NCBI RefSeq assembly: GCF_000740795.1
Contig: NZ_JGYG01000013.1
Coordinates: 1 to 64,000, forward strand
Direction of reading: 5' to 3'
DNA length: 64,000 nt
DNA from: Haematobacter massiliensis
GTDB taxonomy: Bacteria; Pseudomonadota; Alphaproteobacteria; Rhodobacterales; Rhodobacteraceae
Part shown: positions 34,506-60,003 of the stretch, piece after piece
How positions within the stretch are numbered: the stretch's first letter is position 1
How the letters are laid out: every line of letters starts with the position of its first letter
Made by a program: the position numbers and the translations under genes
The notes under the pieces: model-generated
Seen by the model: only the letters and a program-made list of their open reading frames with translations
Databases searched by the model: none
Told to the model about the DNA's origin: nothing

Positions 34506-35357
34506 ATGAATCTCTTGCCCTTTCCCACCTCCTCGGAGCGCGTCACCCCCCTGGCCAAAGCGCCTGCAGAAGTTTCCAGCAGCCATCTCCTGCCTGCCTT
34601 CGATACGCTGGCCCGTGTCATCCAGGAGAAATCGGCGGGGCGGCAGGTCATTTTCCTGCCCAATCCCGGCAACTTCGGGGATGGGCTGATCCGTCACGGG
34701 GCGAAGCGGTTCTTGTATGACTACCGGATTCCCCATACCGAAATTCATCTCGGCAAGGGATCGGCCCGCTATTTCCTGGCGCCCTATCTCGCCCGCAGGA
34801 ACCGGTATCTCTTCATCTACTCGGGCGGGTCCGCCTGGGGGCACAACTATCGTCACGCTGGCGATATCTGTGCCTTTATTTCCTATTTCACAGACAATCT
34901 CATCGTTTTACCCTCCACTTTATACCATCAGGCACCAAAAGTGCGGGGAACCCTGTTTCGCCGAGATGAATATGAGAGCAAGGAAGCCTGTCCGCGGTCG
35001 CTTTTCTGTCATGATATGGCGCTCTACCTGATGGCCAAGGGACTGAAGTACGATTTCGGCCCCCCGGAAACCCCTGTAGGCTACGCCTACCGGCGCGATC
35101 GGGAATCCTCTCATCGGTTCGAGAAGGCCGCGGGCAACATTGACATCAGCGCGCTTGGCAATCACATGTCCAACGGCGACGACTTCCTGCGCGAGATCGC
35201 CCGGTATGAAACAATCGTGACCGACCGGTTACATATCGGCATCGGTGCGGCGATCGTTGGACGCAAAGTGAAACTGTACAGCGGCAACGATTACAAGATA
35301 CGCGCGATCTATCGGACCAGCCTCACCCATGTTCCGAACATCGAATTTCTGGACTGA
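34506..35357 (+). CDS. Polysaccharide pyruvyl transferase
   Basis: This 283-residue protein belongs to the polysaccharide pyruvyl transferase family, which puts pyruvate ketals from PEP onto EPS sugars. Signatures are NPGNFGDGLIRHGA, FIYSGGSAWGHNY and the C-terminal TDRLHIGIGAAI. It has no membrane segment, consistent with action on the lipid-linked unit at the inner membrane. A GGAG site precedes the start. It opens EPS block 2 and is preceded by a very AT-rich promoter region. Confidence 0.88.
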   Translation: MNLLPFPTSSERVTPLAKAPAEVSSSHLLPAFDTLARVIQEKSAGRQVIFLPNPGNFGDGLIRHGAKRFLYDYRIPHTEIHLGKGSARYFLAPYLARRNRYLFIYSGGSAWGHNYRHAGDICAFISYFTDNLIVLPSTLYHQAPKVRGTLFRRDEYESKEACPRSLFCHDMALYLMAKGLKYDFGPPETPVGYAYRRDRESSHRFEKAAGNIDISALGNHMSNGDDFLREIARYETIVTDRLHIGIGAAIVGRKVKLYSGNDYKIRAIYRTSLTHVPNIEFLD

Positions 35358-35507: not shown

Positions 35508-36602
35508 ATGAACTACTCCTGCGTGATTGCGACCCGGAACCGGCTGGAAGCGTTGAAGCTCAGCATACCGATGCTGCTCGGCCAGACCCGTCCGCCTCAG
35601 GACATCATTGTCGTTGATTCAAGTGATGATGAAGCGGCCGTCCGCAGCCTTGTCGAAGAGTTCGCGGCCGCGGCTCCCTTGCCTGTGCGCTACATCCGCA
35701 GCGGACCGGGCGCGGCGGCGCAGCGCAACCTCGGCCTGCGCCATGTCACCGGCGAAGTCGTGCTGTTTCCCGATGACGATTCCCTTCTCTATCCCGATGC
35801 GATGGATCACATCATGCGGGTCTATGAGCGGGATACCGAGGGTTTGATCGGAGGGGTCTGCGCGGCGGAAGCCCATGCCCCTCATGAAAGCGCCGGCATC
35901 GCCGGGGCCAGCGACCGCCCCGGCTACCGCCGCCGGCGGAGCGATGCGATGTCCCTTGCCCTTCTGCCCCTCCGGCGGCGGATGGAGGACCGGCTGATCC
36001 CCGACCCTTTCCTGACCCTTGCCGCGCAGAAACTTGCGCGCCTGCGGCAGCCGGACTGGCTGGAAGAGGTGCAGGCGATCCATGTTCCCTACATGACCGG
36101 CTTCCGCATGTCCTTCCGGACAGAGGTGATCCGTGCCCTTCAGTTCGATGAAGGGCTGGGCCGTTACGCGCTGTTCGAGGATATCGACGCCTCCCTGCGG
36201 ACGCTCGACAATTTTTGCGTCGTGGCTGCGACGCAGGCGTTCATCTATCACCACAAGGCCCCCGAACGGCGGGACGCGGGGCGGGCGATGGGGGTCATGC
36301 ATATCCTCAACCGCGCCTATGTGCTGGCGAAGGACAGGTCCGACAATCCGCGGGAATGGGCACGGATACAATCGGAAGCCCGGCGCTTTGCCGGCTACAA
36401 GACCCTGCTCTACCGGCTGCGCGCGAAATCCACCTTCGCGCGGGATCGCCTGCGCGGTGCGGAACTCGCCTCCGCCGACCAGCAGAAACTCTTCAACGCA
36501 CCGCGGCACGAACTGGCCGCGACCTATGCCCGCGTGAAGGAGTTTTGCTTGCGGAGCCCCGTGCGGGAAAGCTCCGGGCCACAGGCCACTTCCACCTCCT
36601 GA
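35508..36602 (+). CDS. Family 2 glycosyltransferase (paralogue of 8981-10030)
   Basis: This 364-residue GT-A enzyme opens with MNYSCVIATRNRLEALKLSI and shows IIVVDSSDDEA, LFPDDDSLLYPDAMDHI, YMTGFRMSFRTEVIR and YALFEDIDASLRTL. The similarity to the enzyme at 8981-10030 is strong along the whole length, although the two lie 26 kb apart in different EPS blocks. Ribosome-binding site GAGGA is well placed. The pair may add related sugars in two positions or two repeat units. Confidence 0.86.
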   Translation: MNYSCVIATRNRLEALKLSIPMLLGQTRPPQDIIVVDSSDDEAAVRSLVEEFAAAAPLPVRYIRSGPGAAAQRNLGLRHVTGEVVLFPDDDSLLYPDAMDHIMRVYERDTEGLIGGVCAAEAHAPHESAGIAGASDRPGYRRRRSDAMSLALLPLRRRMEDRLIPDPFLTLAAQKLARLRQPDWLEEVQAIHVPYMTGFRMSFRTEVIRALQFDEGLGRYALFEDIDASLRTLDNFCVVAATQAFIYHHKAPERRDAGRAMGVMHILNRAYVLAKDRSDNPREWARIQSEARRFAGYKTLLYRLRAKSTFARDRLRGAELASADQQKLFNAPRHELAATYARVKEFCLRSPVRESSGPQATSTS

Positions 36603-36764
36603 ATTGCCTTGAGCGCCCCTCCGGCGGGCGATGGCTCACCGGAAATATCGGATGGCGGCAGGAGCAGAAACCAGCCGCCATGATCCGCCCCGACATTCCC
36701 GCGCTTGACCCAAACCACCAAGACTGGAAGGCTCCAGCCAGGGTCTGCCCCCAGGAGGCGCGTC

Positions 36765-39104
36765 GTGGCCGTTCCGAACTTCGTCCCCTCGCCGGTGCAG
36801 GGCATCTCCGGTCCCGGCCCCTATGCCATCCCGCATCCCTATGAGGCGGGGGATATCGGGGTGCTGGTCCTGCATCACGATACACGGATCGAACTGTCGG
36901 AGGCGGAGTTCCGGCTGATCCCGCCCGCTTCCTCTACGACGGGGGAGCTTTTGCTCGCGCCCGAAACGGCGGAGCGGCTGGCGGGGGGTCTGCTTCTGCC
37001 CTTCCGGCAGAGCCAGCTTGCGCAGGGCTGGGGACGGAGCGGGGGGCGGCACGGACTGGAGGCACAGCTCGACCTCATCGTGCGGGCGTTGCAGGACCAG
37101 ACGCGGAGGCTGGATGCGGCGCTCAGGCTCGACATGCCGGTGGCGCCGCTCCATCCGCAGCCGGGGCGCCCGCTGGTGGGGACGGAGACGGGCGGGCTCG
37201 ACTGGGGCCGGACCACTGTGGAGACGGCGGAGACCGCTGCCGCGATGCTGGAGCAGGCGGGCCTGATCGCCACGCCCATGCCCTGGCCCGGCAAGGCGGA
37301 GTTCCTCTCCGCGCCCCTCAATCCCGCAACCCGCCTCGCCCGGGTCATGGGGGACGGGCTGGAACTGGTTTACCGGCGCGACCCGGCGGGCGCCACGCGC
37401 CATGAGGATGGCAGCCGCTGGCGGCTCCTCTCGGGGGCGCATTACCCCGATGTGGCCAGCCTCCGCGCGGCGCGGCATCCGTTCGATCCGGGCGACAGGC
37501 TGCGGGCCGGGAGCTTCGGCTATGTCACCTTGGCCGCAGACCGGACGGCCGCCCCCGACCTGGTCACAGCGGGGGGAACGACGCTGGCGGTGGAGGCGGA
37601 CCGGGATGGCTACGTGGATCTCGACGCCTTCGGGGCAGCGGGCGACGGGCGGACGGATGACAGCGCGGCCCTGACACGCGCCATCGCCCGCGGCAAGGTG
37701 CGCCTCGGGCCGCATACCTATGCGGTCAACGAGATCCAGCCCGTAACCGGCATGCGCATCGAAGGCCCGGGGGGAGAGCTTCAGGCGGGGCGCTACGGCC
37801 TCGTCTGCACGGTAAAAGGGGGGGCCATCTTCCGTGACCGGGATGAAAAACCGATCTATGCGGCGGTTCTGGAGGGCTTCTTCGCACAGGCAGCCGCCCC
37901 CGGCGTGATCTTCTACGACAGCCCCGCACAGAAGAAATACACCGGCGGCTTCCGCATCCGTCGTCTGGAGATATCGAACGAATTCCAGCTCCTCTTCCGC
38001 TGCGTGCCGATCTACTGGTCGATCGACGACTGCCGCTTCGGCTTCTTCGGGGGAAGGCAGGGAGGCGGGCAGGCGTTCAGGGTTTTCGAGGCATGGTCCG
38101 ACTCGACCGGCTGCCCCGTGAACCTGAACAAGGTCACGAACACCACTCACTACCACTGCGCCGCGGATAAGGATTTCCCGGCGGCCTATATATTGCGCTG
38201 CGGGGCGAGCTGGACATTCGAGAACTGTTCGGCCGAACAGTTCAGCTGCGCGGTCGTGGAGGCGAGGAGCTTCTCCACCGTCCAGTGGCTGGGAGGATGG
38301 ATCGAACATATCGACTATCCCGTGGTCTTTCGCGCAACGATAGACAAAGGCGCCCCCTATGTCCTGAACGGCACCCCGCTTGCTGTCGAGGGGACAAAGT
38401 TCTTCATCGGCAATGAAACCTGCCGTCATCTGGTGGATAACAGGAACGGCCTGGTTACCCTGCGCAACCTGAATATCCTGGGCCAGGCGACCGGGTTCCG
38501 GGCCGTGACGAACCCCTGGCAGGTCGCGCTCTTTCGCGGCAACTACATCGGGCGAAATCCCGCTTTCGATACAGCTCTCGTGGAGCAGGGCCAGCTTCGC
38601 ACCGGCAGGCTGTCCCCCTGGCGAAACGGCATCCCGCCCGAGCGTCTCACATCCCTTTCCAGAACCCTGCGCCTTTCCCCCCGGGTATCCGGCCTGACCG
38701 GCGAGCAGACAAGCCTTCTGCATCTCGCCGGTGGTTCGGCCAGTCAGGCGGTGACGCTGGAAGTGCCGCTCCAGATCCTTGCGCCCCTGGACGCAGGCTA
38801 TGTGACGATGGCCGCCATCGGCGCGTGGAATGGTTCAGGACAGGGACGGCTGGTGCGCGCCGCCTACTGGGCGAATGCGGATCCCGCCTCTGCCCAGGCG
38901 GCGGCGACCGCCGCTCCCGAGCAGGGCATCACCCGGAGCGACACCGGTCTCGGGATCACCCGGCTGACATGTTTTGTTCCGCATGAGGTGTCCTCCTTCC
39001 ACATCGGCCTCGTGTTCGAAACGTCCCGCGATGAGGAGTTTCTTCTGGAAGGCATGCATCTTCTGGTCGGCGATGCGGTCTGCAACTATCCCTTCTTCGC
39101 CTGA
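36765..39104 (+). CDS. Tailspike-like protein: T7-tail-like N-terminus plus pectate-lyase-type beta-helix
   Basis: This 779-residue protein starts at a GTG with AGGAGG seven bases upstream. Residues about 10-110 resemble the head-binding N-terminal domain of T7-type tail fibres (GPYAIPHPYEAG, then an ELxxAEFRL strand pattern, ending in a helical LDLIVRALQDQTRRLDAALR). Residues about 280-330 hold the pectate-lyase-superfamily opening YVDLDAFGAAGDGRTDDSAALTRAI, followed by a long beta-helix region and a beta-rich C-terminus. No signal peptide is seen. This is the architecture of a phage tailspike depolymerase, but it sits between two EPS glycosyltransferase genes with no other phage gene near. 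A role in cutting or shaping the EPS is inference. Confidence 0.75.
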   Translation: MAVPNFVPSPVQGISGPGPYAIPHPYEAGDIGVLVLHHDTRIELSEAEFRLIPPASSTTGELLLAPETAERLAGGLLLPFRQSQLAQGWGRSGGRHGLEAQLDLIVRALQDQTRRLDAALRLDMPVAPLHPQPGRPLVGTETGGLDWGRTTVETAETAAAMLEQAGLIATPMPWPGKAEFLSAPLNPATRLARVMGDGLELVYRRDPAGATRHEDGSRWRLLSGAHYPDVASLRAARHPFDPGDRLRAGSFGYVTLAADRTAAPDLVTAGGTTLAVEADRDGYVDLDAFGAAGDGRTDDSAALTRAIARGKVRLGPHTYAVNEIQPVTGMRIEGPGGELQAGRYGLVCTVKGGAIFRDRDEKPIYAAVLEGFFAQAAAPGVIFYDSPAQKKYTGGFRIRRLEISNEFQLLFRCVPIYWSIDDCRFGFFGGRQGGGQAFRVFEAWSDSTGCPVNLNKVTNTTHYHCAADKDFPAAYILRCGASWTFENCSAEQFSCAVVEARSFSTVQWLGGWIEHIDYPVVFRATIDKGAPYVLNGTPLAVEGTKFFIGNETCRHLVDNRNGLVTLRNLNILGQATGFRAVTNPWQVALFRGNYIGRNPAFDTALVEQGQLRTGRLSPWRNGIPPERLTSLSRTLRLSPRVSGLTGEQTSLLHLAGGSASQAVTLEVPLQILAPLDAGYVTMAAIGAWNGSGQGRLVRAAYWANADPASAQAAATAAPEQGITRSDTGLGITRLTCFVPHEVSSFHIGLVFETSRDEEFLLEGMHLLVGDAVCNYPFFA

Positions 39105-39138
39105 AGCGAAGCGGTTGCGCCTGAAGCGAAGCGGTTGC
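39099..39138. repeat. 20-bp perfect tandem duplication
   Basis: GCCTGAAGCGAAGCGGTTGC occurs twice head to tail. The first copy contains the stop codon of the tailspike-like gene, so the duplication does not alter that protein. Confidence 0.75.
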
Positions 39139-39159
39139 GAAGGCGGCGAGAGCGGCATT

Positions 39160-39939
39160 ATGGAGGGTCCGGGGCAGGTTCTGCCCGGCAGCGCAACCGG
39201 AGCCGACCCTGTGACGCCTTCTCCTCCCCTCCTGCTGACATCGGCCATCCATGTCTCTGCGCCCCTGACCAACCTGACCGATGCGAAACAGCGCCTTGAT
39301 GCCCATCTCGACAGTCTGGCGGAATGGAGCAGGACGCCGGGTGTAGAGGAAATCGTGATCTGCGACGGTTCGGGTTACGATCTGGAGCCGCATCTCGCTC
39401 CCCTGCGCCAGGCCCATCCCCATATGCGGTATGAAGCCCTTTCCTTTCGCAACGATCAGGAAATGGTTGCCCGGCGAGGGAAGGGCTATGGCGAGGGCGA
39501 GATCGTCCTTCATGCCCTCGGCCACAGCAGGATCCTGCAAAACAGCCCCGCTTTCGCCAAATGCACGGGGAAGCTGTGGCTCAGTAACTTTTCCGCCTGT
39601 CTTCGGGGGTGGAATGGGCAGGCTGGCTTCAATCTCTGGGGCCGCACCCGGATCGACAGCATCGATACGCGCTTCTATCTTGTCGCGCGCGATTTCTTCG
39701 ACCGCCATCTTCGCGATCGCTACCGCGATGTCGACGATCCGGCGGGATATTACCTTGAGCACAGCTATCGCGACGGGTTGGAGGGACTTCCTCCCCGCAG
39801 CTATGTGATGTGGCCCGCCCCGCGCCTGCAAGGCGTGTCGGGTTCCTCAGGGCAGGGCCTGCCGCCCCAGGGGGTCGGCAGGCGGATGAGGAATGACTTG
39901 CGCAACCTTGCCTTTCGCGCGGGAATCCTGCCGCTCTAG
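39160..39939 (+). CDS. Putative polysaccharide-biosynthesis glycosyltransferase
   Basis: This 259-residue protein has the feel of a GT-A-like transferase: EEIVICDGSGYDLE in place of the usual nucleotide-sugar loop, then RRGKGYGEGEIVLHALGHS and CTGKLWLSNF, a pattern seen in poorly characterised capsule and LPS proteins. The C-terminus has DFFDRHLRDRYRDV. The ATG at 39160 has a weak ribosome-binding site; a GTG at 39210 after GGAG is a plausible alternative. It lies between the tailspike-like gene and a flippase. The function is inferred mainly from context. Confidence 0.6.
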   Translation: MEGPGQVLPGSATGADPVTPSPPLLLTSAIHVSAPLTNLTDAKQRLDAHLDSLAEWSRTPGVEEIVICDGSGYDLEPHLAPLRQAHPHMRYEALSFRNDQEMVARRGKGYGEGEIVLHALGHSRILQNSPAFAKCTGKLWLSNFSACLRGWNGQAGFNLWGRTRIDSIDTRFYLVARDFFDRHLRDRYRDVDDPAGYYLEHSYRDGLEGLPPRSYVMWPAPRLQGVSGSSGQGLPPQGVGRRMRNDLRNLAFRAGILPL

Positions 39940-40271
39940 CCTTGGGAGCACAGGCGGGCATTGCCTATCCCTTCGCCAGATTTTATTCCCGTCCCGGTGC
40001 GCGAGACGGTGGCCCTCCGAGCCGCCCATCTCCCGACCGGAGAGCTTATGGACCTGCATCATCCCCAACCGCGACCCCTTTTCTCCGACCGGGAGGGTGC
40101 AAGCAGCCTCGGTTCCGCAATCCCCCCCGTGCTTGCCGGCAAGGGGACAGTCCATGACACGCCCCATGCGCGGGACTGCGGTACGGAAAGAGGCCCCCTG
40201 AGCGGCTCCGCGACCCTGTCCCGCCCTGACGGGATCCCTGCCGATCTGCGCCCCGGGAACCAGCATCTGTC
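39940..40271. other. Gap before the second flippase
   Basis: No gene, repeat or clear promoter is seen in these 332 bp; short open frames on both strands look like noncoding DNA. Confidence 0.4.
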
Positions 40272-41558
40272 ATGACGGAAGCCCGCTTCAACCTGAGGAA
40301 GAATGTCCTCCATCAGGCGTTCTCCTTCGCCGTCAGCCTGGCTCTCACCTTCCTGACCTACCGCATCCTGATCGAGCGCAGCGGGATCGAGGCTGTCGGA
40401 ACATGGTCTCTCCTGCTTGCCTGGACCTCGCTGATCCGGCTTGGCGATCTGGGCCTTGCCACGGCCACGTTGAGGTTCGTGGCACGGCATGATCTGGATC
40501 ATGAGCAGGAAGTCATCCGGGATACGATCGAAACGGGGATACTTTCCAACAGCGCCATCTTCGGACTGCTGAATCTTCTTGGCTGGCTCATCCTGACATG
40601 GGCCCTGCCTTATCTTGTCTCGGCCGATCATCTGGCGGAGGGGGAAGCGCTGCTTCCCTGGCTGTTTCTTCTGTCTTTTCTGAGCAACCTGTCCTGGATC
40701 GTTCTGGGCAGTCTTCAGGGCCTTCATGCCGGCTATGTGGCGGCCCGGCTTTCCGTGGCGGGAAACATCCTGCAGCTTCTGTTGGCCCTCCTGCTCATTC
40801 CGGCCTTCAGCCTGCTGGGACTGGCCTGGGCCCAGATCGCGATGCACCTCGCCCTGGCGATTGTCGGGTGGCTTCTGCTGCATCACTGGGTGCCTTCCGC
40901 CGGGTGGGTGCCGTATCACTTCAACCGCGAGCGGTTCCGCGAGATGCTCGGCTACAGCCTGCGCGCTCAGGTGGCGAGCACGCTGTCCAACTTCTTCGAG
41001 CCTGCCACGAAACTGCTCGTCAGCCTGTTCGGCGATGCCGCGCTTCAGGGGATCTACGAACTGGCCTACAAGACGGTCATGCTGCCCCGCTCCGTCGTGA
41101 TGGCCAGCATTCAGGCCTCCATGCCCGCGTTCAGCTATCAGACCAAGACCGATCCGGAAGCAAGCCGTGCCCTCTATCGCCGTATCCTGCGCCGCACCGC
41201 GCAGGTGACAGTCGCGGTCGGCGTGGCGATCTGCCTCGGTGCACCGGTTGCCTCCTGGCTCTGGCTCGGGCACGTGGATCTGCGCTACTGGGCGTTCACG
41301 GTGATCCTGACCCTGGGGATCCTCACAGCCCTCCTCAATGCGCCCGGCGCATCGATAGGCTTCGTGACGGGAAATCTCCGCCACAATATCTGGACGGCCC
41401 TTGCCACCCTTGCCCTGACCTTCGCGCTGGGGTTCGTGATCGGGCAAATCTTCGGGCCCTACGGCACGGTGGCGGCCATTTCCGCAGGAACGGGCCTGGG
41501 CAGTATCATCCTCAGACGGATGAACGAGCGCTTCCTGCACCAGCAGGCACCAACGTGA
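40272..41558 (+). CDS. Wzx-type polysaccharide flippase 2
   Basis: This 428-residue polytopic membrane protein of the MOP type has about twelve hydrophobic helices (AFSFAVSLALTFLTYRILI at the start) and short basic loops. It resembles the flippase at 10158-11474 only in general layout, not in close sequence. Two flippases in one locus often mean two exported glycans, or a lipid-linked precursor besides the main repeat unit. Confidence 0.84.
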   Translation: MTEARFNLRKNVLHQAFSFAVSLALTFLTYRILIERSGIEAVGTWSLLLAWTSLIRLGDLGLATATLRFVARHDLDHEQEVIRDTIETGILSNSAIFGLLNLLGWLILTWALPYLVSADHLAEGEALLPWLFLLSFLSNLSWIVLGSLQGLHAGYVAARLSVAGNILQLLLALLLIPAFSLLGLAWAQIAMHLALAIVGWLLLHHWVPSAGWVPYHFNRERFREMLGYSLRAQVASTLSNFFEPATKLLVSLFGDAALQGIYELAYKTVMLPRSVVMASIQASMPAFSYQTKTDPEASRALYRRILRRTAQVTVAVGVAICLGAPVASWLWLGHVDLRYWAFTVILTLGILTALLNAPGASIGFVTGNLRHNIWTALATLALTFALGFVIGQIFGPYGTVAAISAGTGLGSIILRRMNERFLHQQAPT

Positions 41559-41612
41559 TCCTCCGCCTCTGCTCCCTTTCCGTTTCGATCTCCGGCCTGT
41601 AGGTAATCCCTC

Positions 41613-42443
41613 ATGAGACTTGCCATCCTGTGCGCCAGCTTCAATCGTGTTGCCGTCACGCTCCAGGGCCTTGAAAGCCTGCGGAACGCGCTCGCCTCCG
41701 CACCGGGGCTGGAGTGGAAGATATACCTGCTCGACGATGCCTCTCCCGACGGAACGGCGGAAGCGGTTCGCACCCGCTTTCCGGATGTGCGGGTCATAGA
41801 GGGAACGGGAAACCTCTTCTGGAACCAGGGGATGCGCCGCGCCCAGGCCGCCGCCCGGGAAGAGGGGCCGTGGGATGCCTATCTGCTCTACAATGACGAT
41901 TCCGTACTGATCCGGGAGGCGGTGGTCGATTTCATTTCCCGTTATGACGCTTACAATCGCGAAGCTCCGACGGCCTGTGTCGGCTCCTTCCTCGACCCCG
42001 ACAGCCGGGAGCCGACATACAGCGGCTACGCCCGGAAATCGCGGCATTTCCCCCTGACCGTCGCGCCGGTCTTTCCCAAGGGCCAGGACATCGCCTGCGA
42101 CACGTTCAACGGCAACTTCGTCATGGTGCCCGGGGTCGCGTTCGAGGCGCTCGGGGGGCTCAGCCCAAGCTACAACCACACCTATGGCGATATCGACCTG
42201 GGTTACGGGCTTGGCCGGAACGGCGTGCGCCGTATCGTGATCGGCAATCCGGTCGGATATGCGAGCCGCAATCCCCCGGCGGATCTTTCGACCCTTTCGA
42301 AACGCTGGAAGAAACATTTCGGGGGGCCGGACAGCTGGCGGCAACATGCAGCCTTCTACCGGCGAAACACCGGGTCCGCGCTCTGGCCGGCCGTCATGAC
42401 GCTCGGCCTTGCCGCCCGGGTAAAACGCGCGCTTCTGGGATGA
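41613..42443 (+). CDS. Family 2 glycosyltransferase
   Basis: This 276-residue GT-A enzyme has MRLAILCASFNRVAVTLQGL, YLLDDASPDGTAEAV, the GTGNLFWNQGM motif common in rhamnosyl- and related transferases, and YLLYNDDSVLI with a metal-binding DD pair. The acceptor-side NHTYGDIDLGYGLGRNG completes the fold. It closes the plus-strand run of EPS block 2. Ribosome-binding site AGGT is present. Confidence 0.85.
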   Translation: MRLAILCASFNRVAVTLQGLESLRNALASAPGLEWKIYLLDDASPDGTAEAVRTRFPDVRVIEGTGNLFWNQGMRRAQAAAREEGPWDAYLLYNDDSVLIREAVVDFISRYDAYNREAPTACVGSFLDPDSREPTYSGYARKSRHFPLTVAPVFPKGQDIACDTFNGNFVMVPGVAFEALGGLSPSYNHTYGDIDLGYGLGRNGVRRIVIGNPVGYASRNPPADLSTLSKRWKKHFGGPDSWRQHAAFYRRNTGSALWPAVMTLGLAARVKRALLG

Positions 42444-47702: not shown

Positions 47703-48707
47703 ATGACGAGCCGCGCCATTGACGCCAGTCCGGTCGCACAGCCTTTCCGGGCAGGCCTCAGGGGGGCCGATCTGCTGGCGGGGATGCTCGTCTTCCTGGT
47801 GGCCTTCGGCATCTCCCTCTCGCTGCTGGGAGCCTATACAGGGGGAGACCAGCTCAACTACCGCGCCTTCTATGACGAGGTACGGGGTGTGCGGGCCGAT
47901 GCCGTGCCGATCGTTCAGGCGATGACCACCGGCTCGGCCGAACCGCTCTATGGCTATCTGATGTGGGTCACCTCCAGCGCGGGGCTGGACAAGGATGTCG
48001 TGATTTCCGTGATGAACGGAATACTGGCGCTGGTCCTTTTCCTGTTCCTGCGTCGCTATCGGGCTGGTGTGCTGCCGACCGCTCTCATCTTTACGAACTT
48101 CTACCTCATCACGCTGTTCACGTCGCTCGAACGCCTGAAGCTCGCCTATATCCTGCTGACGCTCGCCATGCTGGTGTCGGGGTGGAAAAGGGCGCTGATC
48201 CTGTTCATATCCATGACGGCGCATTTCCAGTCCTTCCTGCTGATCGCGGCGGGGGCGGGTCTGCGTGTCGGGTCTGCCGACTTCCTGCGCCGCTACGTCA
48301 CCCCGTTACAGCTGCTTCTCATCCTCATGGGGATTCCGGTCGCCATCATCGGATTTCTGCTCTTTGTGCTGCGCTTCCTGCCCGCCATTCAGGGCAAGAT
48401 GGCCGCGTATCAGGGGGGCGGGGTGGCCGAACTGGCCAGCATGGGGCTGCTCATCATCGTGGGAGTGGTCGTGCTCCGCCGGAAGCAGGCATTCCTGGTG
48501 GGTCTCATTCCGATCGCGATGGCGGCGGCGGTCTTCGGGGCCTCCCGCATCAACGTCATGGCAGTCACATTCCTGCTCTACCTTGCCGTGACGGAGCGGC
48601 GGGCCAGTCATCCGCTGATGCTGGCGCTTCTGGTCTATTTCAGCCTGAAGACCATCCCCTTCGTCGAGAACATCTATGCCTGGGGCGATGGCTATTACAT
48701 CCCCTGA
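47703..48707 (+). CDS. EpsG-family polysaccharide polymerase (Wzy-like)
   Basis: This 334-residue membrane protein has about nine hydrophobic segments, with an early periplasmic loop carrying GGDQLNYRAFYDEV and GSAEPLYGYLMWVTS, then the typical SLERLKLAYILLTLAML and ISMTAHFQSFLL helices. This matches the EpsG family, which fills the Wzy polymerase role. It is the only polymerase candidate in the window and so sets the EPS pathway as Wzx/Wzy type. It is followed by a GT4 gene 18 bp downstream. Confidence 0.8.
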   Translation: MTSRAIDASPVAQPFRAGLRGADLLAGMLVFLVAFGISLSLLGAYTGGDQLNYRAFYDEVRGVRADAVPIVQAMTTGSAEPLYGYLMWVTSSAGLDKDVVISVMNGILALVLFLFLRRYRAGVLPTALIFTNFYLITLFTSLERLKLAYILLTLAMLVSGWKRALILFISMTAHFQSFLLIAAGAGLRVGSADFLRRYVTPLQLLLILMGIPVAIIGFLLFVLRFLPAIQGKMAAYQGGGVAELASMGLLIIVGVVVLRRKQAFLVGLIPIAMAAAVFGASRINVMAVTFLLYLAVTERRASHPLMLALLVYFSLKTIPFVENIYAWGDGYYIP

Positions 48708-51460: not shown

Positions 51461-53638
51461 TTACTCCTCCTTCGCCTTGTATTCATAGCGATAGGAATAG
51501 CTCTGCGCCGATTTGGCCTTGCGGTGATCATAGGCATTGAAAACCGCGCCCTTGAAGCCGGTGCCTGCCGCCTCCATCGCGGCCTGAGCCGCGCGGATCT
51601 CGCCCTCCGGCGTCTCGTCGAAGCGGGCGACGAGCAGGCTCGCCCCCGCTGCCTTGGCGATGATGACCGGATCGGTGACCGCCAGAACCGGGGGGCAGTC
51701 GAAGATCGACAGATCGAACCGCTGGTCCAGCTCGCGGATGAGCGCCGGAAGCGTCGGGCGCAGCAGCAATTCCGCCGGGTTCGGGGGGAACTTGCCTGCA
51801 GGCAGGAAAACCAGCCCCTGCACCCCGGTTGGCACCAGCACATCCTCAAGCCGCGCCTGTCCGGTCAGGATATCGGCAAAGCCCGGTGCATCGCGGGGCA
51901 CGTCGAACATCCGCCGCAGGCGCCCGCGCCGCATGTCCGCGTCGATCAGGCAGACCGACTGTCCCGCCTGGGCGGAGACGACGGCGAAGTTGGCCGACAG
52001 GAAGCTCTTGCCCGCACCCGGCGCGGTGGAGGTGATGGCCAGCGTGCGGGAGGGGGCGTCCAGCATCCCGAAATGCAGCCCCGTGCGGAGCGAACGCAGC
52101 CCCTCCACGGCAAGGTCGGTGGGCTTGGTTGCCGCCAGCAGCGGAACGCGCCCGCCGCGCCCGCCTTCCGGCCTTTCGGCATCCGGGCTCTTGTTGATGG
52201 TGGCAAAGACCGTGAGACCCATGTCCTCCAGGTCGGAAGCGCTCTGAATACCCTTCCGCAGCCAGTTCCGCAGCAGCACATAGCCCGCCCCCAGCATTCC
52301 GCCCAGCAACAGGGCAAGAGCGAGAACGCGCGCCTTGCGGGGCGCCACGGGACGGATCTGGGTCTCTGCCGGATCGACGATCCGCACATTGCCGACGGTG
52401 GAGGCGCGCATGACATCCACTTCCTGCGCGCGGGTCAGAAGCTCGGTATAGATCTCCTGCGCCATTTCCACGTCATGGGTGTAGTTCAGGATCTCCCGCT
52501 GCGTGTCGGGCAGGGTGCCGATCTCCCCCCGCAGCTTGTTGAGCTGATCCTCCAGCCGCTCCCGCTGCGCCAGAAGCTGGCGGTAGCGCGGGTGGTTCTT
52601 GGTATAGAGATCGGCGACCTCGTCCTCCTGCGAGCGGAGTTCACGAAGTTCGGTCTCCAGCGTGCCGATCTGGGTCAGCAGGTTCTGTGTCTCGAACTGG
52701 ATATCGACGGAACGCTGCGACTCGCGATAGGTGTTCAGCCGGTCCTGTGCATCCAGCATGTCCTGCCGGGCCTTGGGGATCTGCTGCTGGATGAAGCCAA
52801 GGCTGTTTTCTGCCTGCGCGGCAGAGCGCTCCACATTCTGGCGGACATAGGCCTGCGCGATGGCGGCCAGCGTGCGCTGCGCCTCCACCCGGTCGCGGGA
52901 GGTGAAGGACAACTCCAGGATGCCGGAATCGCGGGTCTTTTCGGCAACCGACAGGGACCGGCGAAGCCCTTCGATGACATCCTGCGTCTCGCGGTGGGCG
53001 ATCTCGAACTGCCGTCCCGGCTGGCCTTCCAATTCCCCCACGCGGAGGGCGAAGCCGATATCGGTATCCTGCAGGACTTCCCCCACGCGGCCCTCGAACA
53101 GGCGGCCGTCGGGGGTGGTCACGCGGAAGGTATCCCCGTCGCCCTTGGTGAGGGTGAAGGTTTCTCCCGTCCAGTGCGGCGGCACGGCGAGCAGATCGAG
53201 GCGGATCCGCTCCCCCCCTTGGGCATAGGGCCGCAGAAAACTCATTCCCTTGAAGGGCAGCGCGCGGGACCGCAGCGCATAGCCGATCACCGGGAACTGC
53301 CGGGGCCGGGCTGTCCATTCCAGATGCACATCCGCCACCGCCTGGTTCAGCACCAGACGCGACATGATCAGTTCCCGTTCGGTCGTGGCCTGGGTCTGAC
53401 CACCGCCCATCAGATCGGAAAGCCCCGAGGGCACGGCGAGGTTGCCGGTCTTCGGTTCCAGCTGGATCAGCGCATCCGCCTCATAGGTGGGGGCGGTGAG
53501 GAAGATGTAGAGAACCCCCGCGAGCAGCCCGGCCGCGGTAAATCCAGCGACCTTGCCCTTGGCGGCCCAAAGCTCCTCGGCCAGCGCGGCGAGATCGACT
53601 TCCTTCGCTTCCGCCTCGCGCGGGGGCTTCGGGCTCAT
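51461..53638 (-). CDS. Wzz/BY-kinase fusion for EPS chain-length control and export
   Basis: This 725-residue inner-membrane protein fuses a Wzz polysaccharide co-polymerase domain to a bacterial tyrosine kinase. The N-terminal helix is VAGFTAAGLLAGVLYIF. A long coiled coil around residues 260-400 is periplasmic, and the second helix is VLALALLLGGMLGAGYVLL. The kinase holds Walker A APGAGKSF, Walker A' LIDADMRRG and Walker B FDCPPVLAVTD, and ends in a tyrosine cluster (YSYRYEY) for autophosphorylation. Its start overlaps the phosphatase stop by four bases (ATGA), so kinase and phosphatase are translated together. Confidence 0.95.
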   Translation of the reverse strand: MSPKPPREAEAKEVDLAALAEELWAAKGKVAGFTAAGLLAGVLYIFLTAPTYEADALIQLEPKTGNLAVPSGLSDLMGGGQTQATTERELIMSRLVLNQAVADVHLEWTARPRQFPVIGYALRSRALPFKGMSFLRPYAQGGERIRLDLLAVPPHWTGETFTLTKGDGDTFRVTTPDGRLFEGRVGEVLQDTDIGFALRVGELEGQPGRQFEIAHRETQDVIEGLRRSLSVAEKTRDSGILELSFTSRDRVEAQRTLAAIAQAYVRQNVERSAAQAENSLGFIQQQIPKARQDMLDAQDRLNTYRESQRSVDIQFETQNLLTQIGTLETELRELRSQEDEVADLYTKNHPRYRQLLAQRERLEDQLNKLRGEIGTLPDTQREILNYTHDVEMAQEIYTELLTRAQEVDVMRASTVGNVRIVDPAETQIRPVAPRKARVLALALLLGGMLGAGYVLLRNWLRKGIQSASDLEDMGLTVFATINKSPDAERPEGGRGGRVPLLAATKPTDLAVEGLRSLRTGLHFGMLDAPSRTLAITSTAPGAGKSFLSANFAVVSAQAGQSVCLIDADMRRGRLRRMFDVPRDAPGFADILTGQARLEDVLVPTGVQGLVFLPAGKFPPNPAELLLRPTLPALIRELDQRFDLSIFDCPPVLAVTDPVIIAKAAGASLLVARFDETPEGEIRAAQAAMEAAGTGFKGAVFNAYDHRKAKSAQSYSYRYEYKAKEE

Positions 53639-54125: not shown

Positions 54126-55202
54126 TCAGTTCAGCGCATTGTCGGTCGCCGCGACCACATTCGTCGCCTGCACCGTCGGCAGCAGTTTGGAGATCGTGTC
54201 GTTCCAGCGTTGCAGCGGGTTGCGCGTGACATAGACGACATCGCCCGGCTCCAGCACGAAGCGCGTGCCAAGCAGCAGCCCGGTGGGGGAACTCGTCTCG
54301 AGCTGGAAGACGGTCATGCGCCCCCGCACGTTGCGGAAGACAAAGACGCCGCGCGCATCGGACCGGGTGGAGCGCACACCCTTCTGCAGGGCCAGCGCCT
54401 GGGTGAGAGAGACGGTGTCGAGCGACAGGTCGACCGGCCCCGCCTCCGATATCTCGCCCATCAGATAGGCCTCCTGCGCGCGTTTGCGCAGCACGGAGAC
54501 CACATCCCCCGACCGGAGCATCGGGTTGTTGGCGGCCATTCCGGCGGAGAGATAGCCCTCCACATCCACGTCGTAGAACTGGCTGCCGCGCTGGACGCGG
54601 ACGCGGCGCATGTCGGCATTCTCGGTGAAACCGCCCGCCTCGCTGATCGCTTCCAGCAGCGTGCGGGGACTGGTCGTCATCTCCAGCCGCTGCGGCATCT
54701 TCACCTCGCCCGAGACGACGACGCTCTGGGAGTTGAAGGCGGCGACACGCACCTCGAGCTGCGGCTCCGGGACGTATTCGGCCAGCCGCCGCGTCACCTC
54801 CTCGCGGATCTGCTCGAGCGGGCGGCCCTCGGCCCGGACCTGGCCGATGAAGGGGTAGAAGAAACTGCCGTCCGCCTGCACGCGGAAACCGGAATCCTCC
54901 GCCGCCCGCTGCGGCCCGGCAGGGAGCGTCAGCTCCGGATGATCGAAGACGATGATGTCAAGAATGTCGCCCGGCCCGACGAGATAGTTCCAGCGCCCGC
55001 CCCGCGGCATGCTGGTGGCGACATGGCCCTTGGTGGGCTGAGCGAAGCTTGCGATATTATCCGGGGTCAGACGGATGATATCGACATTCTCCTCCTGCGC
55101 CGCACGCTCCTGGCCGCTTTCATCGACGGGGAAATAGACGAAACCATCCGTGCAGGCAGTCAGGATCAGCGGGAGGCAGAAGAAGATGGCATGCTGGCGC
55201 AT
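54126..55202 (-). CDS. Wza-family polysaccharide export lipoprotein
   Basis: This 358-residue protein has a lipoprotein signal with lipobox LTAC near residue 17, an N-terminal Poly_export/SBB region (YLVGPGDILDIIVFDHPELT; ADGSFFYPFIGQV) and repeated SLBB-type domains (VVVSGEVKMPQRL, AYLMGEISEAGPVDL). It should form the outer-membrane EPS channel. It heads the operon with the phosphatase and Wzz/kinase. A second, non-lipidated export protein is encoded at 61.7-62.3 kb. Confidence 0.93.
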   Translation of the reverse strand: MRQHAIFFCLPLILTACTDGFVYFPVDESGQERAAQEENVDIIRLTPDNIASFAQPTKGHVATSMPRGGRWNYLVGPGDILDIIVFDHPELTLPAGPQRAAEDSGFRVQADGSFFYPFIGQVRAEGRPLEQIREEVTRRLAEYVPEPQLEVRVAAFNSQSVVVSGEVKMPQRLEMTTSPRTLLEAISEAGGFTENADMRRVRVQRGSQFYDVDVEGYLSAGMAANNPMLRSGDVVSVLRKRAQEAYLMGEISEAGPVDLSLDTVSLTQALALQKGVRSTRSDARGVFVFRNVRGRMTVFQLETSSPTGLLLGTRFVLEPGDVVYVTRNPLQRWNDTISKLLPTVQATNVVAATDNALN

Positions 55203-58398: not shown

Positions 58399-60003
58399 TC
58401 AGAACGGAATGTAGCGGGGCAGGACGTTCAGGCTTTTCGCCATCAGCCGCTGAATGCGGGCATCGGCGTCGGCCTCGCTCTCGTTCGTGCCGATCGGGGT
58501 GACATAGCGCACCAGCGCCCCGTCCGTACGGCCGCGGGTCAGGCTGTCCCAGACGACGCTGGCCTTGGCGAGATAATCGTTGGTCATCCGCTTGCCGCGC
58601 TGCTCGAACCAGTAATAGACGAGCTGTTTGGACAACCCTTTCTGGATTACCGCCCGGTTCACGGTGAAGGTACCGTAGGGCGTTCCCGGGAAGCTCACCT
58701 CGTGCGGCTGGAAGGTGAAGATCTCCCAGCCCCCGACCGGGAGACAGACTTCCGGCGAGTGGATGCCGGCGCCTTCCGTCTGCTTCTCGTAATAGGCCGA
58801 GAAGAAATGCACATAGTCCTTCTCGCCCGGTGCGGTATAGGCGGCGTTCATGTAATCGGTCGCGGCCAGCACCCGCTCGATCTCCGGGTCGAGACCGGAG
58901 GCCGCGCCCGACCATTCCCCGAATTGCCGGGGGAAGAGCGCGAAGGGCTCCCGGTCCATCTGCTGGGCCTGCGGCCCGCCATGCAGCGCCCAGCCCGCCG
59001 ACAGGGCAAGCGTCAGCAGTGCCCCCGCCGCCAGCGCCTTCGAGGGGCGGATCGACAGGATGCGCCCCATGAGCGGCGCCATGCCGCGGGTGTCGAGGTC
59101 GATCGCCTCCGCCAGCGGCAGCGGGTTCCGCGTCAGCCGTTGCAGGCCCATCGCCATCAGGAACAGGATGCCGATACAGGCGATGAAGATCACCCAGCCT
59201 TCGAAGAAGTGCAGGAACCCTTCGGCATGCTCGATACCGTAGGAGTTCACCAGCACCCCGATCACCCCGATGCGGAAGGAGTTCATCAGCACGGTGAGCG
59301 GCACGGCCGACAGCATCAGCACAGCCTTGTGCCAGAAGGGGCCGCGATAGAGGATGGCGAAGAGATAGGTGAAGCTCAGGATCGGGAACAGGTAGCGCAG
59401 GCCCGAACAGGCTTCCGCCACCTGCAGCTTGTAGACCCCGAGGTCGATCACATTGCCTTCGAGATAGACCGGCACACCGGCAAGGCGCACGAACCACACG
59501 CCGATCTCCGACGAGATCCCCTGCAGGAAGATCGTCAGGTGCCAGTAGAGGAACTGTGGCAGCGGCAGCATGAAGATCAGGTGCAGGACAGGAAGCTGAT
59601 GATGCTTGCCCCGCTCCCAGCCGAAGACGGTGAGGACCACACCACCCACCCAGATGATCATCGCATAGGTGACGATATCGGGAATGCGGGTGAGGTTGCC
59701 GAACAGCGCAACCGTGAGGCCCAGCAGGATGACGAGGAGTCCCGGCCAGCGGTCCCGTACCTCGGCCGCGGGCGGCGGCATCTGCCGCAACTCCCGCAGG
59801 AAGAGGTAGAGCGAGATCAGCGGTATGAGCGGCCCATGGCTGTATTCCGGCGTGGACCAGGCCTTCGCCAGCGAGACGAAGCCGATCCAGAAGATCGGGA
59901 TCGACCCGGCCAGAAGCAGAATGAACCACATGAAACCGGGGGCGTTCACCGAGGGAAGCGCAGCCGCCAGGGAGGAGCGGGAATTCTCGTTCGCGGCCGT
60001 CAT
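58399..60003 (-). CDS. xrtD: Exosortase (XrtD type) with fused EpsI domain
   Basis: This 534-residue protein has about eight membrane helices followed by a soluble C-terminal domain. The exosortase active site is visible: Cys199 in [10 protein letters not shown], Arg244 in NSFRIG and the histidines around residues 259-265 ([13 protein letters not shown]). Residues about 330-530 match EpsI ([17 protein letters not shown]; the [14 protein letters not shown] cysteine motif). Fused EpsI is typical of exosortase D, which sorts VPLPA-CTERM proteins, three of which are in this window. The start has AGAGGA well placed. It should cut substrates at the VPLPA motif on the outer face of the inner membrane. 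Confidence 0.93.

Follow-up and report, generated by a model that had tools for sequence, protein, structure and literature searches.

Within the first 64,000 nucleotides of contig NZ_JGYG01000013.1 of Haematobacter massiliensis (assembly GCF_000740795.1; this whole stretch is referred to below as the window), a tailspike gene at 36765–39104 of the forward strand is located in an exopolysaccharide (EPS) locus and not within a phage structural operon, its annotated neighbours being EPS genes. Homology searches show the predicted protein (hereafter the spike) to be a chimera of two phage parents, in which a podophage-type adaptor (residue 1 to approximately 145) is joined to a siphophage receptor module (approximately residues 175–779), and homologues of both halves occur among phage genes in other places. 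The favoured reading, to which an even chance is given, is that of a host-captured phage tailspike that is kept in the EPS locus and would act on the cell's own EPS following release by lysis. The gene and its domains are as follows.

36753–36758, forward strand: Shine–Dalgarno motif AGGAGG, 6 nt before the GTG, conserved in two Haematobacter comparison loci (L008, L009) (sequence)
36765–39104, forward strand: orphan tailspike gene, 779 amino acids, GTG start, stop codon included (sequence; homologues in three other Haematobacter strains)
36765–37139, forward strand: residues 1–125, T7 gp17-type virion adaptor domain plus helix, of the class found behind phrog_684 in prophages (profile searches, model)
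37602–38579, forward strand: residues ~280–605, right-handed beta-helix of tailspike type (model, structure matches; 45 % identity to a prophage tailspike)
38652–39074, forward strand: residues ~630–770, C-terminal beta-sandwich resembling carbohydrate-binding modules (model, structure matches)

Two phage parents of the spike

The closest relative of the receptor module is encoded in the same genome. Residues 175–778 of the spike share 45 % identity with a siphoprophage tailspike (C10:128873–130693) whose gene is surrounded by terminase, portal, head, tape measure, J-like, endolysin and repressor genes; in genomospecies 1, the gene of the counterpart prophage spike is preceded by a J-like tail gene and, further ahead, by genes for a tape measure and minor tail proteins. 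The alignment of the EPS-locus and prophage spikes is good from approximately residue 175 onwards and poor over the preceding residues. Among four viral-contig spike matches, L065, L067 and L068 resemble genomic prophages by the lengths of their open reading frames and just L066 was counted as separate, while weak beta-helix profile matches (13 of 15 genomes), which comprise short stretches and mostly the cap motif, were not counted as relatives. Of the genomes searched, those of Haematobacter alone yielded the whole spike gene.

The adaptor was traced to a different type of phage. Residues 5–89 model as a T7 gp17-type tail-fibre attachment domain: the AlphaFold model of residues 1–147 has a mean predicted local distance difference test score (pLDDT) of 68, with block means of 83–94 over residues 11–80, and the top 11 rows of its VIA-align search are all phage tail chains, most of them labelled just as tail complexes, the eleventh being the tailspike TSP4 of CBA120, aligned at 187–250. 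The N terminus of the T7 tail fibre gp17 (7boz) was matched over 71 aligned residues with a root-mean-square deviation (rmsd) of 2.4 and Z 6.8, and the Z values of the adaptor model fall below the VIA-align caution line of 8. Foldseek returned no E value below 0.001 for the adaptor model, its best phage row, a Kp9 tail at 0.088, being followed closely by unrelated proteins. Pfam gave no match in any of eight adaptor sequences, and a profile of the eight matches residues 1–130 of the solved tailspike Dpo31/Dpo36 (E=5e-4).

The genomic surroundings of the adaptor relatives are uniform. A profile of residues 1–147 matched five non-Haematobacter genomes among 394 of the family and gave four further strong matches among 390 genomes of the order, one of them in Paracoccus marinaquae. 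In all nine distinct strong non-Haematobacter genomes (G419 and G602, with identical coordinates and scores, were counted as one, and three weak matches without phrog_684, in G008, G572 and G647 with E 3e-4 to 5e-4, were excluded), the adaptor lies directly behind the virion structural gene phrog_684, the distance from the phrog_684 match to the adaptor gene start being 12–21 nt in eight genomes and 173 nt in one. The same order holds in five of five viral-contig loci (L108–L112), of which L108 and L112 are 100 % identical to queries from counted genomes and L109 equals L110 over the adaptor, leaving L109–L111 to contribute two sequences beyond those already counted. These loci were found with three adaptor queries; scans of the viral contigs with the window protein and three other adaptor queries gave no relative, and tblastn of the P. 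marinaquae adaptor against phage records gave no match. Relatives of phrog_684 occur in phages such as phiV10 (Uetakevirus) and Dunaliella viridis virus SI2, that of SI2 being the nearest at 32 %.

A class-wide adaptor search yielded 28 weakly matching genomes besides the window's own among 385 (best E 2e-10). Ten contexts were fetched and the genes of nine were scanned (L133 was left out): three contain the tail gene phrog_376 at most 1.1 kb before the adaptor gene, one contains phrog_684, two adaptor genes lie behind giant genes of phage families, and one has a phage-family protein approximately 2 kb off. The adaptor-bearing proteins of the remaining two of the nine, at L128 4891–7512 and L131 2608–5103, share a similar gene order in two genomes of one other alphaproteobacterial genus; the L128 protein is itself a PHROG tail protein, and the one downstream neighbour scanned in each matched no tail or virion family (a weak phage family of unknown function for L128, none for L131). 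They may perhaps represent another orphan tail protein.

The predicted domain order of the complete spike, a phage N-terminal domain followed by a beta-helix and a C-terminal sandwich, is that of tailspikes. The full-length model has a mean pLDDT of 58, with residues 1–274 under 50 and a mean of at least 70 in 24 of the 32 ten-residue blocks of residues 281–600. Its best VIA match is the phage tailspike 6e1r (Z 30.1), closely followed by PfbA, alginate epimerases and the Vibrio lyase RbmB. In Foldseek, rows 1–18 are all phage spikes, tail fibres or depolymerases, with several rows per protein, and the K2-2 spike was matched at E 8e-12; the TM-scores on the query are low (0.17–0.32 for the top 18), probably due to the poor N-terminal part of the model. 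Tail fibre and pectate-lyase-type proteins are among the named top rows of the search against viral structure models. Searches of the whole protein by Pfam, NCBIfam and phmmer against the PDB gave nothing above cut-off, tblastn in 50,697 phage records gave no match, and PHROGs gave weak phage structural matches, mostly near the beta-helix cap (best E 4e-4).

A preceding sequence-only reading of the window had proposed a T7-tail-fibre-like N terminus, and both the structural comparison with gp17, which places a tail-type domain in the model, and the Dpo31/Dpo36 profile match bear this out. It had also set residues 270–700 against tailspikes, and this stretch falls into two domains, the tailspike beta-helix at approximately 280–605 and the C-terminal sandwich at approximately 630–770.

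Start codon and gene boundaries

The open frame of the spike extends from 36705 to 39104 and its first codon is a TTG at 36705. The GTG at 36765 is the likely start, because it is preceded by the AGGAGG motif, it aligns with the starts of the phage homologues, and the pattern of codon changes relative to Haematobacter missouriensis shifts at this position, with one synonymous and six nonsynonymous changes in the 20 codons before the GTG vs 13 and three in the next 60 codons. Neither possible start (TTG 36705 or GTG 36765) gives a hydrophobic leader when read by eye. A Tat signal in the longer frame was considered and rejected, as its 20 extra codons are without coding constraint. A scan for sigma-70 promoters and terminators was negative for the interval from the upstream gene to the spike, and it gave three overlapping terminator-like sites inside the spike gene at 36927–36948, vs 2.3 expected. 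A 695-amino-acid open frame lies antisense to the spike (36636–38723, reverse strand), which is probably a by-product of high G+C content.

The exopolysaccharide locus

By its predicted gene content, the spike locus is a Wzx/Wzy-type EPS cluster of Haematobacter, with genes for a flippase, an EpsG-type polymerase candidate, Wzc, a phosphatase, Wza, glycosyltransferases and a pyruvyl transferase as well as GDP-fucose genes. The spike gene is positioned between a family 2 glycosyltransferase gene upstream and a gene of no known family downstream.

34506–35357, forward strand: polysaccharide pyruvyl transferase (family match)
35508–36602, forward strand: family 2 glycosyltransferase just upstream of the spike (family match)
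39211–39939, forward strand: downstream gene without Pfam or NCBIfam match, within the divergent block described below (library scan, synonymous divergence)
40272–41558, forward strand: oligosaccharide flippase, Wzx type (family match)
41613–42443, forward strand: family 2 glycosyltransferase (family match)
47703–48707, forward strand: EpsG-family gene, candidate Wzy-type polymerase (family match)
51461–53638, reverse strand: Wzc-type chain-length kinase (family match)
54126–55202, reverse strand: Wza-type export protein (family match)

All four Haematobacter strains with data share this arrangement, spike included. Over 24.6 kb, the window and plasmid pOT1-6 of H. massiliensis OT1 show 99.1 % identity, and the matching 42 kb of this plasmid contains no annotated phage gene (the gene table is incomplete) and ends in an IS21 transposase and a recombinase. 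The possibility that the spike is simple cargo of a nearby prophage was rejected, as the 42 kb around the OT1 copy is without annotated phage genes. The same EPS region of the window contains genes for exosortase EpsH and a DUF3485 protein (58399–60003, reverse strand), and in the corresponding region the OT1 plasmid also encodes a rhomboid protease and a VPLPA-CTERM protein, so that a connection between EPS and protein sorting is possible.

Selection and synonymous divergence

Comparison with H. missouriensis gave a nonsynonymous divergence (dN) of 0.130 and a synonymous divergence (dS) of 0.648 for the spike frame, including the 20 upstream codons, and the resulting dN/dS of 0.20 points to purifying selection; the 13 other genes of the region range from 0.065 to 0.198. 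The divergence is distributed unevenly along the gene (codon windows are numbered in the TTG frame), with dS of 0.23–0.29 in codons 1–320, 0.50 in codons 321–400 and 1.0–2.2 from codon 401. The identity of the two proteins declines in parallel, from 97 % over residues 1–150 and 94 % over 175–370 to 78 % over 371–600 and 58 % over 601–779. High values continue downstream (1.41 in the 39211–39939 gene, 0.89 in the flippase, 0.98 in the second family 2 glycosyltransferase and 0.68 in a family 4 glycosyltransferase) and fall to 0.29, 0.23 and 0.19 in the next three genes, delimiting the following block.

37665–42443, forward strand: high-dS block, from within the beta-helix through the 39211–39939 gene, the flippase and the family 2 glycosyltransferase (dS, one species pair)

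Its left edge lies within 37665–37904, and on the right dS declines through the family 4 glycosyltransferase before the fucose synthase. The genes upstream of the spike have dS values of 0.76, 0.52, 0.57 and 0.37, and EpsG and the family 4 glycosyltransferase following it have 0.59 and 0.47. The pattern appears as if one exchanged block joined the sugar-recognising half of the spike to the neighbouring EPS genes. The 39211–39939 gene, which diverges along with the C-terminal half of the spike, is possibly an EPS-type-specific enzyme.

The observation made in the sequence-only reading, a tailspike-like protein in an EPS operon with no phage around it, was thus confirmed: phage annotation is absent from the OT1 counterpart, the related Haematobacter loci place the gene among EPS genes and not beside intact phage genes, no hydrophobic leader is evident from either start, and purifying selection agrees with retention of the gene. 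The interpretation given there, a domesticated depolymerase or a structural organiser of the EPS that is possibly attached to a particle, is partly supported.

Possible functions of the spike

The best reading of the action of the spike on its own EPS is that of a depolymerase or a lectin. According to the mechanism proposed here, the spike would fold in the cytoplasm as a homotrimer capped by the former adaptor. Without an export signal, it would leave the cell when a fraction of the population lyses through prophage or gene-transfer-agent release; outside, the beta-helix would bind, and most likely cleave, the EPS of kin cells, and such cleavage would trim or loosen the matrix, as is the case with WceF and TspA in their hosts. 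A model for export without a signal is provided by TspA, a biofilm-clearing tailspike that Rhodobacter capsulatus makes along with its gene transfer agent; the authors of the preprint suggest that TspA may also be released as a soluble protein at lysis (PMC13420450). Recognition of the cell's own EPS is suggested by the gene location together with the co-divergence described above.

Several points weigh against this account. The dN/dS of the spike (0.201) is the highest of the 14 genes, near the next (0.198). The block argument is carried by one species pair, dS values above 1 are near saturation, and dS is uneven outside the block as well (0.19–0.76, higher upstream and at EpsG), yet below the block. 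The EPS target is deduced from location and co-divergence, and not from the target of the prophage spike, and a steady extracellular role is difficult to envisage for a protein with no evident export signal, unlike WceF. Moreover, conservation of the acidic positions invariant in the prophage spikes (10 of 15) does not exceed that of the invariant positions overall (105 of 139). Finally, the OT1 copy of the spike lacks one base of a G6 run (window 37769), and this gap splits it. The OT1 plasmid record (NZ_CP035506.1) also lacks single bases in homopolymers at window 51690, 52525 and 53219, and these gaps break up the spike and the wzc region, among several EPS genes. Pseudogene status was rejected, as three or more further homopolymers in that stretch of the record also lack a single base, and the split is a probable sequencing error.

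Among the alternatives, the one that fares best, though unlikely, is that the spike is a lectin-like matrix protein that binds and cross-links EPS without cutting and thereby organizes the matrix. This would be in keeping with WceF, which agglutinates with its polysaccharide and cuts it slowly (PMC7949094), and with the resemblance of the C-terminal sandwich to carbohydrate-binding modules. The fold alone does not decide, as the adhesin PfbA is also near, but the nearest folds are mostly depolymerases, lyases and epimerases. Conserved positions can be cited on both sides: of 139 positions invariant in four prophage spikes (residues 275–600), the spike retains 105 and its H. missouriensis counterpart 112, and the 15 acidic ones among them are reduced to ten and 11, respectively. 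The acidic residues retained in the spike include D421, E442, E491, E514 and D527. The five acidic changes, one of which is D to E, favour a non-cutting protein; the ten acidic positions kept, the four of four invariant tryptophans kept in both Haematobacter species and one invariant histidine kept here argue against it. The pattern fits a retained sugar-binding face, and it does not by itself prove catalysis.

Next, and likewise improbable, is a role in trans, in which a phage-like particle would receive the spike, be it for retargeting, as a decoy or as a replacement for a missing TspA. Docking would take place either through the adaptor, on virions of a phrog_684-type podophage infecting the cell, or through a different surface, on the Haematobacter gene transfer agent. 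Few parts of the spike are as constrained as the adaptor: codons 81–160 have a dN of 0.006 and a dS of 0.264 (ratio 0.02, the next lowest being 0.03 in codons 401–480), and the 97 % between-species identity over residues 1–150 points in the same direction. However, codons 1–80, which comprise the first half of the adaptor and the 20 upstream codons, have a dN/dS of 0.20, and the conservation may merely reflect trimer stability, since WceF versions without the head domain aggregate (PMC7949094), suggesting that the adaptor could be kept without any virion. The genome encodes a siphoprophage and the gene-transfer-agent baseplate gene GTA_TIM, which is present in three of three Haematobacter genomes, while a TspA-type gene was found in none of the three, either by a four-protein profile or near lysS. 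On the other hand, attachment to a particle is weakened because phrog_684, the usual virion neighbour of the adaptor, was not found in the spike's own genome or in either of the other two Haematobacter genomes, the same search being positive in six of six adaptor-bearing control genomes; furthermore, the adaptor is of podophage type, and TspA is described as docking via other surfaces (PMC13420450).

The identity of the spike with TspA itself was rejected by sequence, gene position and type of N terminus. Presumed TspA orthologues were recognized in four relatives by their place near lysS and their length. BLASTP of the spike against such a presumed orthologue gave just a 36-residue match at the cap (E 0.027), and lysS of the spike's own genome is located on contig C2, with the spike on C13. 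The profile of the four presumed orthologues matched five of six relatives, four of which are profile members, leaving one independent match. As a separate observation, Haematobacter has apparently lost the biofilm-clearing spike of its gene transfer agent with GTA_TIM kept, and that the EPS-locus spike took over the task of TspA is speculation. The genome also contains a second GTA_TIM-bearing frame (C6:22722–23246, 753 amino acids, matching from profile position 125), which is perhaps a baseplate gene that has decayed or is carried by a phage.

Less probable still, and already disfavoured, is a passive phage remnant that landed by chance among EPS genes and has no role, to which the phage origin of both halves, the restriction of the whole gene to Haematobacter and the OT1 split (perhaps an error) would correspond, but which is contradicted by a frame open in three of four copies, a conserved Shine–Dalgarno motif, an unchanged site and purifying selection. 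The most doubtful proposal is a lock-and-key cassette of EPS locus and matching tailspike with a working adaptor, loaded in trans onto podophages or the gene transfer agent so that particles become kin-specific by EPS; the locus that would bear this cassette lies on a plasmid in strain OT1.

Comparison with known systems

The preferred reading, a captured tailspike acting on the host's own EPS, has one close precedent among those that surfaced in full-text literature searches on tailspikes combined with EPS, cluster, domestication and Rhodobacterales themes. WceF of Pantoea stewartii is a stewartan hydrolase of tailspike fold encoded in an EPS cluster; it carries a P22-like head and a Tat signal, its mutant makes longer EPS, and its authors just speculate on a phage source (PMC7949094). 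Like the spike, WceF is encoded among glycosyltransferase genes with a pyruvyl-transferase gene in the region, and it comprises a phage-type N-terminal domain, a beta-helix and a C-terminal sandwich, as predicted for the spike. The plan is thus the same, and what is new are the different phage parents, the lack of an evident signal peptide and the traceable relatives of both halves: the spike has no evident signal and a T7-type adaptor where a Tat signal and a P22-type head are found in WceF, and unlike WceF it keeps approximately 40–45 % identity to present-day prophage genes, with a second half that co-diverges with EPS genes. A phmmer search of the spike against PDB chains, in which WceF is assumed to be present, gave no match at E up to 1. 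The matches listed in the literature searches contained no report of a Haematobacter EPS-locus spike, and those for Haematobacter and prophages contained one unrelated paper.

TspA, like the spike, is a host-encoded beta-helix tailspike of the Rhodobacterales, of similar length and located away from the main particle genes. The preprint describes a carbohydrate-binding N-terminal sandwich and a gene by lysS (PMC13420450), and this N terminus differs from the T7-type adaptor of the spike. The prophage tailspikes and fibres behind phrog_684 in Paracoccaceae, as well as Dpo31/Dpo36, share the adaptor domain; however, the Paracoccaceae adaptor genes are virion genes directly behind phrog_684, whereas the EPS-locus spike is an orphan, and in phage phiV10 a phrog_684 relative is present with the tail fibre gene further downstream and not as the next gene. 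The Haematobacter siphoprophage tailspike shares the receptor module with the spike but has a different N terminus and belongs to a J-linked tail operon. RbmB, a Vibrio cholerae polysaccharide lyase (9ozl), is a member of a biofilm gene cluster, and its beta-helix is near the spike model (Z 25.1, rmsd 3.0, 294 aligned residues), the match being without the phage adaptor part.

With the spike, a second tailspike has become part of an EPS locus, apparently independently of the first, and for each of its halves relatives are still visible in phages, of podophage type for the adaptor and in a siphoprophage for the receptor module. As it lacks an evident export signal and has kept its adaptor, both the exit of EPS-locus depolymerases lacking secretion signals and the mounting of host-encoded spikes on phage-like particles become testable in one genus. 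If the C-terminal half truly tracks EPS alleles, the gene would provide a ready-made type-specific reagent for the EPS made by the adjacent genes.

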